From: Bradyrhizobium guangzhouense
Lineage (GTDB): Bacteria; Pseudomonadota; Alphaproteobacteria; Rhizobiales; Xanthobacteraceae
Length of the DNA stretch: 64,000 bases
Assembly (NCBI RefSeq): GCF_004114955.1
Contig: NZ_CP030053.1
Location: 1-64,000 of the forward strand
Reading direction: 5' to 3'
Shown: one piece after another, positions 2,927-8,027 of the stretch
How the letters are laid out: the number at the start of each line of letters is the position of its first letter
How positions within the stretch are numbered: position 1 is the first letter of the stretch
Made by a program: the position numbers and the translations under genes
The notes under the pieces: generated by a model
The model's database searches: none
Told to the model about the DNA's origin: nothing
What the model saw: the letters and a program-made list of their open reading frames with translations, nothing else

Positions 2927-4063
2927 ATGACCCCCTCCCGCATCCATCGCCTGACGCTGACGCATTTTCGCAACTATCGGGCGGCGGGGCTCGAGACGGC
3001 GGCTGACATGGTGGCGTTGGTCGGGCCGAACGGGGCAGGCAAGACCAATTGCATCGAGGCGATCTCGTTCCTGTCGCCGGGACGGGGCCTGCGCCGCGCC
3101 ACGCTGGAGGATGTCGCCGACAACCAGGGCGACGGCTCCTGGGCGGTCTCCGCGCAGGTCGAGGGCGCGCTGGGGCTCGCCACGCTCGGCACCGGCATCG
3201 AGCCGCCGCGCGCGGACGCCGCGGTGATCAGGCGCTGCCGCATCGACCGCGAGCCCGTGAATTCGGCGGCCAGCTTTGGCGATCACGTCCGCATGGTGTG
3301 GCTGACGCCGGCGATGGACGGACTGTTCATGGGCGCCGCGTCCGAGCGCCGGCGCTTCTTCGACCGCCTGGTGCTGGCGATCGACAGCGAGCATTCCAGC
3401 CGCATCAACGCGCTGGAACGCTCGTTGCGTTCGCGCAACCGCCTGCTGGAGACGCGCAATTACGACGACCATTGGTGCGACGCGATCGAGCGCGAAACCG
3501 CAGAGCTCGCGGTCGCCGTCGCCGCAACGCGCGGCCAGACCGCAGCGCGTCTGACCGGCATGCTGAATGCGCGCGCGCAACAATCCGCGTTTCCCTCGGC
3601 GCAGATCGCGCTCGACGGCTGGATGGAAAATGCGCTGCTGACGGAGACGGCGACATCGGTCGAGGATCGCTATCGCCAGATCCTGCGCAACAACCGCCCG
3701 CGCGATGCCATCGCCGGCCGCACCACCGACGGCCCGCATCTCACTGATCTCCAGGTGATCTACGCGCCGAAAAGCATGCCCGCGCGCGATGCCTCGACCG
3801 GCGAGCAGAAGGCGCTGCTGATCGGCCTCGTGCTGGCGCACGCGACGCTGGTTGCCGAGATGACCGGCATCGTGCCGCTCTTGCTGCTCGACGAGGTCGT
3901 CGCCCATCTCGATCCCAACAGGCGCGCGGCGCTGTTCGACGAGCTGCGCAGGCTCGGCGCGCAGGTCTGGCTGACCGGCGCGGACCCGGCCGCATTTGCC
4001 GAGATCGGCGCCGGCGGCGAAGTCTTTGACGTCGAGAGCGGACGCGTTTCGGCCCGGCGATAG
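2927..4063 (+). CDS. recF: DNA replication and repair protein RecF
   Basis: SMC-like ATPase that helps load RecA at gaps together with RecO and RecR. It is 378 aa, normal for the family. Walker A GPNGAGKTN is at about 33-41. Near the C terminus are the ABC-type signature STGEQKALLIGL and Walker B LLLLDEVVAHLD. The ATG lies directly after the palindromic repeat. The gene is third in the dnaA-dnaN-recF cluster; gyrB, often next, is displaced by about 4.2 kb of unrelated tandem genes. Confidence 0.96.
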   Translation: MTPSRIHRLTLTHFRNYRAAGLETAADMVALVGPNGAGKTNCIEAISFLSPGRGLRRATLEDVADNQGDGSWAVSAQVEGALGLATLGTGIEPPRADAAVIRRCRIDREPVNSAASFGDHVRMVWLTPAMDGLFMGAASERRRFFDRLVLAIDSEHSSRINALERSLRSRNRLLETRNYDDHWCDAIERETAELAVAVAATRGQTAARLTGMLNARAQQSAFPSAQIALDGWMENALLTETATSVEDRYRQILRNNRPRDAIAGRTTDGPHLTDLQVIYAPKSMPARDASTGEQKALLIGLVLAHATLVAEMTGIVPLLLLDEVVAHLDPNRRAALFDELRRLGAQVWLTGADPAAFAEIGAGGEVFDVESGRVSARR

Positions 4064-4071
4064 CCGTTTTG

Positions 4072-4100
4072 TTGAACCCGGCTTATTCGGATCGCGACTA
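4072..4100 (+). promoter_or_regulatory. Conserved promoter-like element, copy 1
   Basis: TTGAAC at 4072-4077, a 17-bp spacer, then CGACTA at 4095-4100. The same two boxes with the same spacing precede the two downstream paralogues (4965-4993 and 7232-7260), while the spacers differ. This points to a real promoter, either of sigma-70 type with a weak -10 or of an ECF sigma factor. The sigma factor is unknown. Confidence 0.6.
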
Positions 4101-4181
4101 GGTCCGTGAGGCCGCGCAGGCGGTGTCGCAGCCGTTGCAATCGCGCGATCGACGCGCGCGATATCCCTGGAGAGAAAGACC

Positions 4182-4940
4182 ATGACGACGGTAAGGCGCG
4201 GGACGAAAGTCCCGGCACGATGGCGGCTGTTCGTGTGCGGCCTCGCTTTGCTTGCGAGCGGCGTCGCCACGGCAGGCGCGGCCGGATGGACGCCACATCT
4301 GCCGCTGCTGTTTTCGTCCGCGCTCACGCCGGACCCCGACGCCGTGCTGCCCGCGCCGACGAGGACCAGCTATCGCGAGATCGGCACCACAAAAATGCTC
4401 GGCATTGACGCGCCGCTGCGGACCAGGCTCACGGCACGCATTCCCGCCGGGCTCGGCGAGGTGCTCGCCTTCTACCGTACCGAGCTCGGCAAGCTCGGCT
4501 GGCAGGAGCAGCACGATGGCGCGGACATCGCCAGCGATCACGTCCGGCTCGCCTTCACGACTCCGCTGGGGCCGGCAGCGCTGGCACTCGACCGCAAGGG
4601 GTCGAGCACCTCGGTCAATCTGGTGCAGCGAAACAGGGAGGCCGCGATCCTGGCGCATGTGATGCCGAGGCCCGGCCGCGCGGCGCTGATGTTCACCAAT
4701 CTCGGCAACAAGGAAACCGTGCTCACGCTCGACAATCACACCGTCACGCTTCCCGCCCGCACCGGCAAGGAACGCCCCGAGGCGCCGCTGTTCAATGTTC
4801 CGCCGGGCAAATACGCCTACGTCTTGAAGATCGACGGCGAAGCGGACCGCGACACGACGATCGAGCTGGCGGCCGGCGATGCCTGGGAGGTCACGGTCGG
4901 CCCCGAAGGCGATTTGTGGTCGCCGCTCCAGCTCTATTGA
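4182..4940 (+). CDS. Exported protein of unknown function, FYxxEL-GW module (paralogue 1 of 3)
   Basis: Function not recognised. It is 252 aa with an N-terminal signal peptide: RRGTKVPARWR, then a hydrophobic stretch at about 15-35 without a lipobox. A module at about 55-150 carries EVLAFYRTELGKLGW (93-107) followed by a beta-rich stretch ending in SVNLVQRN. A second beta-rich domain at about 160-252 contains NVPPGKYAYVLK and TTIELAAGDAW and loosely resembles a PEGA-type fold. The chain ends PLQLY. Both domains recur in the next two genes. An AGAGA Shine-Dalgarno lies before the ATG, and the roughly 80-nt leader is similar to that of copy 3. An envelope role is inferred only from the signal peptide. 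Confidence 0.75.
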   Translation: MTTVRRGTKVPARWRLFVCGLALLASGVATAGAAGWTPHLPLLFSSALTPDPDAVLPAPTRTSYREIGTTKMLGIDAPLRTRLTARIPAGLGEVLAFYRTELGKLGWQEQHDGADIASDHVRLAFTTPLGPAALALDRKGSSTSVNLVQRNREAAILAHVMPRPGRAALMFTNLGNKETVLTLDNHTVTLPARTGKERPEAPLFNVPPGKYAYVLKIDGEADRDTTIELAAGDAWEVTVGPEGDLWSPLQLY

Positions 4941-4964
4941 GTTCGACCCCGCCGGATACCGCTG

Positions 4965-4993
4965 TTGAACCTGTGAGGTTCCCGCCACGACTA
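4965..4993 (+). promoter_or_regulatory. Conserved promoter-like element, copy 2
   Basis: TTGAAC at 4965-4970, a 17-bp spacer, CGACTA at 4988-4993. It starts 24 bp after the stop of paralogue 1 and 41 bp before the start of paralogue 2, so each gene can have its own transcript. Confidence 0.6.
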
Positions 4994-5033
4994 GCTGACA
5001 GTGCTGCTCTCGCGAATTCCAGGAGTTTTGCCG

Positions 5034-7202
5034 ATGTCGATGATCAAGCGCGGGATGCAGGTCCCGGCACGCGGGCTGCTGCTTGCCTGCAGCCTTATGC
5101 TGATGGCGAGTACCGCACACGCAGCACAATTCGACGCCGGCTTTGTCGATCCTCATACGCTGCCGCTGCTGCCAGGCGCGATCGAGGACACCTCGCGCCC
5201 CGATCCCTACCGGATGCAGTACGGCACTCCGACTGTGGTCGCGGTGACATCAGCTGCCGTGAAGAAAATGCTCGTCACTGACGGCTGGGTGCCCTACGTC
5301 CGCCCGCTCGACGAGACCAACAGCAATCTCGCCTTCAAGAAGGGGCGGCAGGGACTGTCCGTCTCCTTCACGCAGGGCCTCGGCCGGCCCGATCAATCCG
5401 GCGTCACCTACACCCCGAACCGCATCTATTCGAATGTCCCGTTCCCGGACGGCGCGATCGATCTCGTGTTCGACGAGACCCGTCCCTACCTCGGTTGCAT
5501 CGCGCCCAGCGCTTTCGACGCGACGGTGGAGTTCTACGCGAAGGAAATGGCTGCGATCGGCTGGCGCAAGCTGACGCCCGAAACAGCCACAAGCTGGCCG
5601 AACGCGGACCTGAGCGAGACCGTCGCGAACGGTGTACGTGTCTTCTTTGAGCACCCCGAAGGCGACGAGACGCAATTCTACAAGCAGAAGCCGGTGATGC
5701 TGACGCTGACCCGCCGCGACGACGGGCGGACCAATGTCGACATCAGGATCGCGCCGTTCGCGTTGCCGACCAACCTCACTACGGAAGAGATGTCCGGCCT
5801 GCCGATACCGAAGCCGTACAAGTCGGCAGGCGGCAGAGGCGCCGGCCCGAACCGGCACGACCTGACGGTCGCGGCTCTTGCCGAACCGTCCGCCGTGCTC
5901 GCTTTCTATCATCGCGAATTCGCGGCACGCGGCTGGACGGAAGAAGGAAATGCACCTCTTGCCGCAGGCGATGAAGTTGCGCTGAAGTTCTCCTCAACTG
6001 AGCAAACCGGCGTGCTGCGGCTCTCGCGCAAATACGACTTCACGATGGTCTATCTGACCGCGCAGGTGAAGGAGAGCGTGCTCGCGGCCCGTGCCAAGGC
6101 GAAGAAGGATGCCGACGACCAATTCATGAGGGATGCCGCGGCGATGACGAAGCAAGTCCTCGCCGAAGACGCTATCAGGCGCAAGGCGCAGGCCGCAGCG
6201 CTGTCCGATGCGCCCTTGCAGGCGCAGGCCGGCGGCAACACGCCGCTGCCGGTGCCGGTGAACGCACAGGAGGTGGAGTCCGGTGACGGCCGGCTGGAAT
6301 TCAACTCGGCCTCGAGCGTGAAGGCGCTGGCCGCCTTCTACCGCGCCTCGCTGAAGCCCGCCGGCTGGAAGGAGCAGCCCTCCGTCATCAACCAGCCCAA
6401 CATGGCGGTGATGGAATTTTCCAAGGCCGGTAAATCGATCTCGATGACCTTGATGCAGATGGGCCCGAAGGTAAACGTCAGCGCCAACGGATCCGGCCTG
6501 AGGATGGCTGCCGCCAAGCCTGCCGCCACCAGCCAATCGGCGAGCAACGATCCTGCTGCAAGGCCAGCCGGAGCTCCCGCCCCGCTGGAAGCAGATCCAG
6601 ACTCCGCACTGCCCGTGCCGAAGCAACACAGCTCGACCTCGCTGGGCACGGCAAAGCTGCCCGGCATCGAGGTGCCGTTCCGCCGCGAGCTCGACGCCAG
6701 CGTGCCCGCCGAGCTCGGTGACGTGCTCGCCTTCTATCGCAGCGAGCTGAAAAAACTCGGCTGGCAGGAGAAGCCTGAAGGCGCGGTCACGACCACCGAT
6801 CGCGTCCAACTCGCCTTCGCCTCTCCGCAGGGACCGGCGACGCTGAAGCTTGGCCGCGCCAAGGGCGAGACGTCGGTCAACCTGGTGCAGAAGAACCCGG
6901 AAGCCGCGACCAAGGCGAACATCATGCCGAGGCCAGGTCAGGCCAAACTGCTGCTTGGCAATATGGGCTATCAGGAAGCCGTGCTCACCATCAACAAGCA
7001 GACCGTCAAGGTTGCGGCCGGTGCCGGTGGCCCGCAATCGCCGAAAGGGCCGATGCTCGATCTGCCGCCCGGCAAGTACCTGTACGCCCTGAAGGTTGCG
7101 GGGCAGCCGGGCCGGAACGCCACGATCGAGCTTGCCGCCGGCGATGCCTGGGGCCTGATGGTGGGGCCGACCGGCGAGGTGCTGCCGCTGCAAATGTATT
7201 GA
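5034..7202 (+). CDS. Large exported protein with repeated FYxxEL-GW modules (paralogue 2 of 3)
   Basis: Function not recognised. It is 722 aa. The signal peptide (KRGMQVPARG, hydrophobic 14-28, likely cut after AHA at about 30) matches the paralogues. It then has five successive modules with the pattern FYxxE...GWxE: a divergent one (GW at 84), then FY/GW pairs at 167/176, 291/300, 435/444 and 567/576. A charged helical segment at 345-390 separates modules 3 and 4, and an Ala/Pro-rich linker at 490-525 precedes module 5. The last module plus the beta-rich domain at 625-722 is nearly the whole of paralogues 1 and 3, ending PLQMY. The ATG at 5034 was chosen because AGGAG lies 8 nt upstream; an in-frame ATG follows at 5040. 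Confidence 0.75.
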   Translation: MSMIKRGMQVPARGLLLACSLMLMASTAHAAQFDAGFVDPHTLPLLPGAIEDTSRPDPYRMQYGTPTVVAVTSAAVKKMLVTDGWVPYVRPLDETNSNLAFKKGRQGLSVSFTQGLGRPDQSGVTYTPNRIYSNVPFPDGAIDLVFDETRPYLGCIAPSAFDATVEFYAKEMAAIGWRKLTPETATSWPNADLSETVANGVRVFFEHPEGDETQFYKQKPVMLTLTRRDDGRTNVDIRIAPFALPTNLTTEEMSGLPIPKPYKSAGGRGAGPNRHDLTVAALAEPSAVLAFYHREFAARGWTEEGNAPLAAGDEVALKFSSTEQTGVLRLSRKYDFTMVYLTAQVKESVLAARAKAKKDADDQFMRDAAAMTKQVLAEDAIRRKAQAAALSDAPLQAQAGGNTPLPVPVNAQEVESGDGRLEFNSASSVKALAAFYRASLKPAGWKEQPSVINQPNMAVMEFSKAGKSISMTLMQMGPKVNVSANGSGLRMAAAKPAATSQSASNDPAARPAGAPAPLEADPDSALPVPKQHSSTSLGTAKLPGIEVPFRRELDASVPAELGDVLAFYRSELKKLGWQEKPEGAVTTTDRVQLAFASPQGPATLKLGRAKGETSVNLVQKNPEAATKANIMPRPGQAKLLLGNMGYQEAVLTINKQTVKVAAGAGGPQSPKGPMLDLPPGKYLYALKVAGQPGRNATIELAAGDAWGLMVGPTGEVLPLQMY

Positions 7203-7231
7203 TCCCGCCGCATTCGCCTGCGACGGCCGGG

Positions 7232-7260
7232 TTGAACCTGAGCGGTTCGCGCGGCGACTA
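7232..7260 (+). promoter_or_regulatory. Conserved promoter-like element, copy 3
   Basis: TTGAAC at 7232-7237, a 17-bp spacer, CGACTA at 7255-7260. The leader after it holds a perfect 9-bp stem, GAGGCTGCG paired with CGCAGCCTC (7269-7296). The leader of copy 1 has a weaker version of this stem. Confidence 0.6.
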
Positions 7261-7343
7261 GTGGTCCTGAGGCTGCGCAGCGTGTGTCGCAGCCTCCGTA
7301 GCGCGCGAAGCTTGAGCACGCGCGACGTCCCTGGAGATTGAGC

Positions 7344-8027
7344 ATGGCGATGGTCAAGCGCGGGCCGAACGTCCCGGCAAGATGGCGGCTGCTGGTCTGC
7401 GGCCTCGTTCTTCTCGCGGGCTGTGCGAAGCAGCCGCTGACGGCAGATCCCCAAGTCGAAATGCCGGCACCGAAGCAAAGCAGCTTCAGTCAATTCCGCA
7501 CCACGCATGCGCTTGGCGCCGAGGCCCCGCTCCGGACCGAGATCGAAGCGCGCGTGCCCGCGGAGCTCAGCGAGGTGCTCGCCTTCTACCGCAGAGAGCT
7601 CGGACAGCGCAGCTGGCAGGAGAAGCCGGATGACGCGGTCATCGCCGTCGATCGCGTGCAACTGGCCTTCGTCTCCCCGAAGGGCCCGGCCGTGCTGAAG
7701 CTTGGCCGCGCCCAGGGCGAGACCACAATCAGCCTGGCGCAAAGGAATCCGGAGGTCGCGGCCAAGGCCGATATGCTGCCGACATCGGGGAAAGCGCGGC
7801 TGATCTTCGGCTATCTAAGGCCGGACGTGGCTTCGCTCGTGATCAACGATCGGACGATCGAGATTGCCGGCGGCGAAAATCATCCGCAGACGCTGGATCT
7901 GCCGCCCGGCACGTATCCTTACGAACTGCGCGCGTCGGGCCTTCTGCTGCGCGCCGACACCGTCACTCTGGCCGCAGGCGAGGCCTGGGACCTCAGCGAC
8001 GATAACAAGCCGTCCCAGATCTACTGA
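7344..8027 (+). CDS. Putative lipoprotein with FYxxEL-GW module (paralogue 3 of 3)
   Basis: Function not recognised. It is 227 aa. The N terminus KRGPNVPARWRLLVCG matches the two upstream paralogues, but here it ends in a clear lipobox LLAGC with Cys27, so the product should be lipidated. The module at about 38-135 has EVLAFYRRELGQRSW, with Gly of the GW motif changed to Ser. The C-terminal beta-rich domain carries DLPPGTYPYELR and VTLAAGEAW, and the chain ends PSQIY. The ATG at 7344 follows GGAG by 7 nt; a TTG two codons upstream is possible. It is the last gene before gyrB and has its own promoter copy. Confidence 0.75.
   Translation: MAMVKRGPNVPARWRLLVCGLVLLAGCAKQPLTADPQVEMPAPKQSSFSQFRTTHALGAEAPLRTEIEARVPAELSEVLAFYRRELGQRSWQEKPDDAVIAVDRVQLAFVSPKGPAVLKLGRAQGETTISLAQRNPEVAAKADMLPTSGKARLIFGYLRPDVASLVINDRTIEIAGGENHPQTLDLPPGTYPYELRASGLLLRADTVTLAAGEAWDLSDDNKPSQIY

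Follow-up and report, generated by a model that had tools for sequence, protein, structure and literature searches.

What are the three genes that lie between recF and gyrB in Bradyrhizobium guangzhouense, how did they come to stand there, and in what process might they take part? In the window analysed here (a stretch of 64,000 nucleotides from this species), recF ends at 4063 and the start of gyrB is taken as 8310, and between them the three genes, named here A, B and C, follow one another on the plus strand.

Organization of the trio and homology among its genes

The open reading frames of 252, 722 and 227 amino acids that a sequence-only reading had placed in this interval were confirmed as gene A (4182..4940), gene B (5034..7202) and gene C (7344..8027). 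Their N-termini, judged by eye, are signal-like, so that all three products are predicted to be exported. The KRGxxVPAR start ascribed to the whole trio was found in B (KRGMQVPAR) and C (KRGPNVPAR) and not in A, where RRG stands instead of KRG (RRGTKVPAR), while the terminal Q-[LMI]-Y was present as described in all of them, as QLY in A, QMY in B and QIY in C. Protein C carries the lipobox LAGC and is lipoprotein-like; in A of this strain Gly replaces the lipobox Cys, and in alignment A2, whose rows were sorted crudely by C-terminus, this Cys is kept by 16 of the 21 rows for A and by 15 of the 19 for C.

Protein B is composed of a signal-like start, segments M1 (5145..5435), M2 (5430..5768) and M3 (5781..6083), a linker, M4 (6231..6509), a second linker, M5 (6576..6917) and a PEGA-like C-terminal domain (6897..7199), all encoded on the plus strand. 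Profile-profile comparison of sub-alignments of 35 rows related modules M2 to M5 to one another with probabilities of 71-99%, each having an FY...L...GW-like core; M1 reached 1-18% against the other modules, which does not establish kinship, and the C-terminal domain was independent of the modules (0.1-1.8%). Proteins A and C consist of the start, a module of the M5 type, which is the part that they have in common with B, and the C-terminal domain, the upstream modules of B being absent; in A the FY..L..GW module spans 4329..4655 and the PEGA-like domain 4647..4937, on the plus strand.

The homology proposed for all three genes was borne out by BLASTP, in which A aligned with the C-terminal part of B at 52% over 206 aa (E 5e-70), C with B at 51% over 191 aa (E 2e-61) and A with C at 43% over 252 aa (E 1e-62); A and C align along their entire length, and each corresponds to the final 200 residues of B. 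The similarity of the three units at the DNA level begins at an upstream element (at 4071, 4964 and 7231, respectively), runs through the leader and reaches codon 28. Between A and C, 146 of 201 aligned positions are identical, with a score of 81 and a best score of -5 among 300 shuffles; the scores for A/B (17.5, best shuffle -7) and B/C (36, best shuffle -8.5) likewise exceeded those of all shuffles, in keeping with the earlier proposal that promoter and 5' leader were copied along with the genes.

Family assignment and distant relatives

None of the three proteins gave a match above the cut-offs of Pfam or NCBIfam, so the description of the family as unrecognised stands, nor was there a match to the PADLOC anti-phage defence models at E 0.01 or a Psp domain in any of them. 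A PEGA domain was not detected in A, B or C themselves at E up to 10, the Pfam gathering score of 20.8 bits being reached by none. Among the 48 members of A2, those with a weak match to PEGA numbered 8 when E values as high as 1 were admitted (best 0.0033), those matching DUF2059 numbered 16 (best 0.01) and those matching fvmX5 11 (best 0.00075). When the C-terminal profile of A/B/C was compared with a PEGA profile built from seven alphaproteobacterial segments (eight were picked and one was dropped as cut off), the probability was 89.7% (E 1.8e-6, over 54 columns), falling to 36.6% for the B orthologs alone and to 0.1-0.6% for the modules. Since the Pfam PEGA matches are weak and DUF2059 and fvmX5 match more members, we regard the C-terminal domain as PEGA-like and not PEGA; it aligns with PEGA (PF08308) by profile-profile comparison, whereas a conserved W and the terminal Q-x-Y set the domain of A/B/C apart.

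More distant relatives were reached with a profile of M5 and the C-terminal domain, which gave weak module matches in small lipoproteins of Alphaproteobacteria. Aligned as A3, these lipoproteins matched the A/B/C module at 98% in hhalign, and their profile in turn retrieved from the host genome B (E 1.2e-5), A (2.1e-4) and, only at E 0.2, C. Of 299 genomes taken from across the phylum, 32 contained a match to this profile, Bradyrhizobium itself counted. The small lipoproteins, found in Alphaproteobacteria and other Proteobacteria, therefore resemble A/B/C in having a homologous module; unlike A/B/C they have a single module and lack the PEGA-like domain, and their neighbours vary between genera. 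They fell into no Pfam or NCBIfam family.

A sequence search of the PDB with B alone returned three MreB chains (E 0.65-0.87), taken as chance, and the search with the A/B/C profile yielded there a single weak match, in the C-terminal part, to 9k1u_D, an 89-residue "serine/threonine kinase" chain (E 0.0078). Protein B had no match on plasmids. No publication on this gene family or regulon was among the matches listed from the open-access literature, a coverage that does not extend to subscription journals. Altogether, A, B and C appear to form an uncharacterised modular family whose members are predicted to be periplasmic or membrane-anchored.

Distribution and history

A search of named genomes with protein B gave 49 loci, 46 of which come from records titled Bradyrhizobium, and recF and gyrB flank the gene at 47 of the 49. 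In a family-level sample it had a match in 21 of 149 genomes (10 of 47 genera), with two Bradyrhizobium genomes giving none (G105 and G122), and in an order-level sample in 13 of 249 genomes (8 of 111 genera). The adjacency of recF and B also occurs in two other genera (g20 and g26), and in further genera the family is found outside the recF-gyrB interval among unrelated neighbours. A scan of 20 neighbouring proteins, one of which lies in the recF-gyrB interval of g26, showed no consistent pattern, so that the neighbourhood yields no function. The trio interrupts the adjacency of recF and gyrB, as had been suggested. In the 18 family genomes picked for comparison, gyrB lies at most 300 nt from recF in five, one being a Bradyrhizobium, and within 1.3 kb in ten.

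The copies are unequal, and in this respect the earlier description as a tandem triplication of one unit has to be abandoned. In a tree of 118 rows, A formed one clade (100/99) and C another (100/100), the two being sisters (94/88), and A + C branched among the B sequences, at a fork that is itself weak (89/39). At five of the 49 loci protein B stands alone, and three of these five branch with the outgroups. It stands alone in sister genera too, and for this reason we take B to be the older protein. A and C, as single sister clades placed among B, are best read as two old partial copies, each arisen once, and not as the products of a recent triplication; both persist across many Bradyrhizobium. 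No further convincing copy of the family was detected by BLAST in the host genome, where two additional rows (E 0.25 and 0.51) proved to be C and A themselves, and one at E 0.41 lies elsewhere and contains a stop. A second, distant family member with a different N-terminal part was observed elsewhere in some Bradyrhizobium (L112:5545-6423, L113 and L121).

A conserved box pair upstream of A, B and C

Each of the three genes is preceded by a 31-nt element, GTTGAACC-N16-CGACTAG, on the plus strand. Before A it occupies 4071..4101, 8 nt past the preceding stop codon and 80 nt ahead of the ATG; before B, 4964..4994, 24 nt past the preceding stop and 39 nt ahead of the ATG; and before C, 7231..7261, 29 nt past the preceding stop and 82 nt ahead of the start. 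The core pattern, identical in all three, is TTGAAC-N17-CGACTA and resembles the promoters of ECF sigma factors.

The conservation of this element was scored at loci picked by protein homology and not by the motif, the window included. All 41 A genes and 19 of the 22 C genes scored at least 13 of 15, and 46 of 50 B genes at least 12 of 15; among random stretches, 75 of 1000 reached at least 12 of 15, a control drawn from the same loci that may overlap true sites. Among sites scoring at least 11, those of A and B show 98-100% conservation of TTGAACC and CGACT, and those of C show 84% at the first T and 100% at the other box bases; the spacer columns range from 30 to 100% and the flanks from 28 to 100%. 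When spacers of 12-21 nt were allowed, 43 of 43 matches had 16 nt. A rescan of the seven low-scoring cases recovered the boxes in two of the four B genes, L038 (12/12) and L026 (11/12), and in L041 with a spacer one nucleotide shorter; the pair was absent on rescan from the B gene of L014 and from the C genes of L009, L010 and L047.

Relatives of B in other genera or positions were scanned for the boxes, leaving out L122 and L072, which have too little upstream DNA. The boxes were found at 12/12 in L059, L116 and L119, at 11/12 in L120, at 10/12 in all five genomes of genus g26 examined, and at 10/12 for the second Bradyrhizobium paralog (L112, L113 and L121), as a near match 70 nt upstream; twelve loci of distant relatives (L105-L111, L114, L117, L118, L067 and L074) reached at most 8/12, which is chance level. 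The boxes thus travel with B and its nearer relatives, and not with the most distant ones.

Other genes preceded by the box pair

In the host genome (8.1 Mb) there are six exact copies of TTGAAC-N17-CGACTA, where 0.30-0.33 would be expected from base composition and the reversed control gave one. Three of them precede A, B and C, and the others lie 61-73 nt before a gene for a 206-aa protein (x206), pspA and a gene for a caspase-domain protein. Allowing two mismatches in the same genome gave 20 matches against 72 for the control, and therefore weak matches to the boxes mean nothing; the exported-protein genes near such two-mismatch sites (L196 and L197) were dismissed accordingly, the scan being below its control.

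The same classes of genes recurred in other genomes of the genus. A shorter pattern gave 133 matches in 40 Bradyrhizobium genomes, against 40 for the reversed control, and a longer one gave 48 sites in 60 genomes, against 16 for the control; these 48, located in 31 genomes, comprise 24 before the caspase gene, 20 of the A/B/C type and four others, one of them before lemA. The two scans together yielded 138 distinct sites, of which 113 fall into six recurrent classes (caspase 39, A/B/C 33, x206 17, pspA 13, lemA 8 and a 45-aa membrane protein 3), or 114 when a single site before a gene for a 205-aa membrane protein is added; the 24 that precede none of these classes are no more than the control predicts. 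Orthologous sites within one genus share ancestry and are not independent events, and as the caspase, pspA, lemA and x206 sites were found through the motif, their conservation is not unbiased. TTGAAC is followed by C at every A/B/C and caspase site, by G at those of x206 and pspA, and by T at seven of the eight lemA sites. A match to the box pair was also seen upstream of a tRNA gene (tRNA-His by eye) in L341 and L356, which may be due to chance.

The recurrent genes under the boxes look exported or membrane-bound. The PspA-family protein, which belongs to a membrane-stress family, matches PF04012 with 50.7 bits (cut-off 33.9), its box lying 73 nt upstream of a GTG, the assumed start codon, and genes for YqiJ and flotillin follow downstream of pspA in the host genome; the LemA match is 196.9 bits. 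The caspase protein matches Peptidase_C14 with 113.7 bits and has a signal-like N-terminus and the motifs YAGHG and DACRNNP (L253:2293-3813, minus strand), which we take to be its catalytic motifs. It recurs across the scanned Bradyrhizobium genomes as an exported protein, and a search for its function found nothing. Among the PADLOC models, the caspase protein matches that for caspase and the PspA protein, weakly, that for LeoA. The predicted co-regulation of A/B/C with the pspA, caspase and x206 genes is, in our opinion, well supported.

The family might instead be a structural or adhesive surface protein whose link to stress is incidental, as its PEGA-like C-terminus, its repeated modules and the lipobox Cys shared by most of the A and C sequences in A2 would allow; we hold this quite unlikely, as it leaves unexplained that A/B/C, pspA and lemA have the boxes in common.

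Probable type of promoter

The box pair has the features of a promoter of the ECF type, namely two boxes of the AAC...CG type separated by a fixed spacer of 16-17 nt and located shortly before the start. A promoter of the RpoH type was considered and rejected, the base before TTGAAC being free and the second box not fitting the RpoH consensus. An ordinary housekeeping promoter of the RpoD type, copied with the genes and tied to no special regulon, would account for the boxes of A, B and C by copying, and box 1 does start with TTG like the RpoD promoters of B. japonicum, for which the consensus is TTG-N(16-18)-TATA (PMC4842269). However, the second box is CGACTA and lacks the TATA of that consensus (PMC4842269), and the 8.1-Mb genome has only six exact copies, three of which precede genes without homology to A/B/C, which makes this explanation highly improbable.

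A somewhat better case, though still a rather unlikely one, can be made for a site bound by an activator or response regulator, with two half-sites 16-17 nt apart, so that the regulon would be real and driven differently. The fixed spacing and the strict conservation of the boxes would fit such an operator too, and the class-specific bases after TTGAAC suggest an additional specificity. Nevertheless, neither box repeats the other, in direct or in inverted orientation, and most pairs lie 40-100 nt ahead of the start codon and in the direction of the gene, as would be expected of a -35/-10 pair.

The nearest comparison for the ECF-type reading is the EcfF regulon of B. japonicum, which has the consensus GTAAC(g,a)-N14-15-(t,c)CG(t,a) and oxidoreductases as about half of its annotated targets (PMC3420878). 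The likeness lies in the two-box AAC...CG geometry and in the small size of the regulon; the difference is in box 1, GTAAC(g,a) in that regulon (PMC3420878) and TTGAAC here. No sigma-factor gene was recognised by eye near the loci analysed.

Proposed function

The shared promoter-like element suggests a function for A, B and C. We consider it on balance probable that they belong to an uncharacterised exported family, each member being transcribed from its own copy of an ECF-type promoter, within an envelope-stress regulon that would also include the pspA-yqiJ-flotillin cluster, lemA, the exported caspase-domain protein and the exported 206-aa protein. The grouping of PspA with YqiJ and flotillin has been described in connection with envelope stress (PMC11237479), and it is from this and from the exported, membrane-bound or PspA-like nature of the recurrent genes that we infer envelope damage as the trigger. 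In the operons of that report CesT/Tir-PspA occurs with YqiJ and a band-7/flotillin protein; PspA, YqiJ and flotillin are present here as well, and the host PspA has about 170 residues ahead of its PspA part, as would be expected of a CesT/Tir-PspA, whereas the words LemA, caspase, PEGA and ECF do not appear in the main text of the paper (PMC11237479). With the Psp envelope-stress system the candidate regulon shares a PspA homolog, which lies under the common element.

According to this proposal, the box pair would be read by an alternative sigma factor of the ECF type, released upon envelope damage, which would raise, at the inner membrane, the levels of LemA and of PspA-flotillin and, outside of it, those of A/B/C, the 206-aa protein and the caspase-domain protein. 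The repeated modules of A/B/C could bind a component of the envelope, stabilising it or holding it for repair, with the PEGA-like domain as the end facing the wall or membrane. As A/B/C appear to be under the same switch as membrane-repair and caspase genes, they probably help the cell to cope with damage to its outer layers. If so, a nameless exported family and an exported caspase-domain protein of bacteria would for the first time be placed in a functional context, and a candidate PspA/flotillin/LemA envelope-stress regulon would be defined by sequence in a genus that is important in nitrogen fixation; a box pair of 12 bases at fixed spacing makes such a regulon directly testable.

A bolder version, which we put forward as speculative and unlikely, is a dedicated and hitherto undescribed programme against envelope damage, served by a separate sigma factor, in which repair of the inner membrane by PspA, flotillin and LemA would be coupled to the periplasmic A/B/C and caspase proteins, A/B/C acting as guards or substrates of the caspase; if true, Bradyrhizobium and its sister genera would possess a repair-or-die switch outside the cytoplasm. 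A direct action of A/B/C with the co-regulated exported caspase, as its substrate, inhibitor or scaffold, also deserves mention, since A/B/C (20 of 48) and caspase (24 of 48) are the commonest classes of sites in the 60-genome scan and both kinds of protein have signal-like N-termini; the trio and the caspase gene are, however, about 4 Mb apart in the host genome, and we judge such a partnership distinctly improbable.

Further observations at recF-gyrB loci

Several loci departed from the common arrangement. About 3 kb are inserted between B and C at two of them (L018:7671-10800 and L028:10885-14050), and in both the last 186 nt of the insert directly repeat the end of B, with 94% and 92% identity, as if an element had integrated there. 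At L035:2698-3700, a shorter stretch after A repeats parts of the end of A (85% over 174 nt). Between B and gyrB, a long open reading frame on the opposite strand, resembling by eye an OafA-type acyltransferase, was found in B. jicamae PAC68 and B. hereditatis (L040:10134-12350 and L042:10158-12370), and a FUSC-family gene occupies this position in a g26 genome (L115:6172-7320). Finally, a record titled Frankia sp. RB7 (L006) contains a Bradyrhizobium-like recF-B-gyrB locus whose protein is 80% identical, and is probably a mislabelled or contaminated genome.
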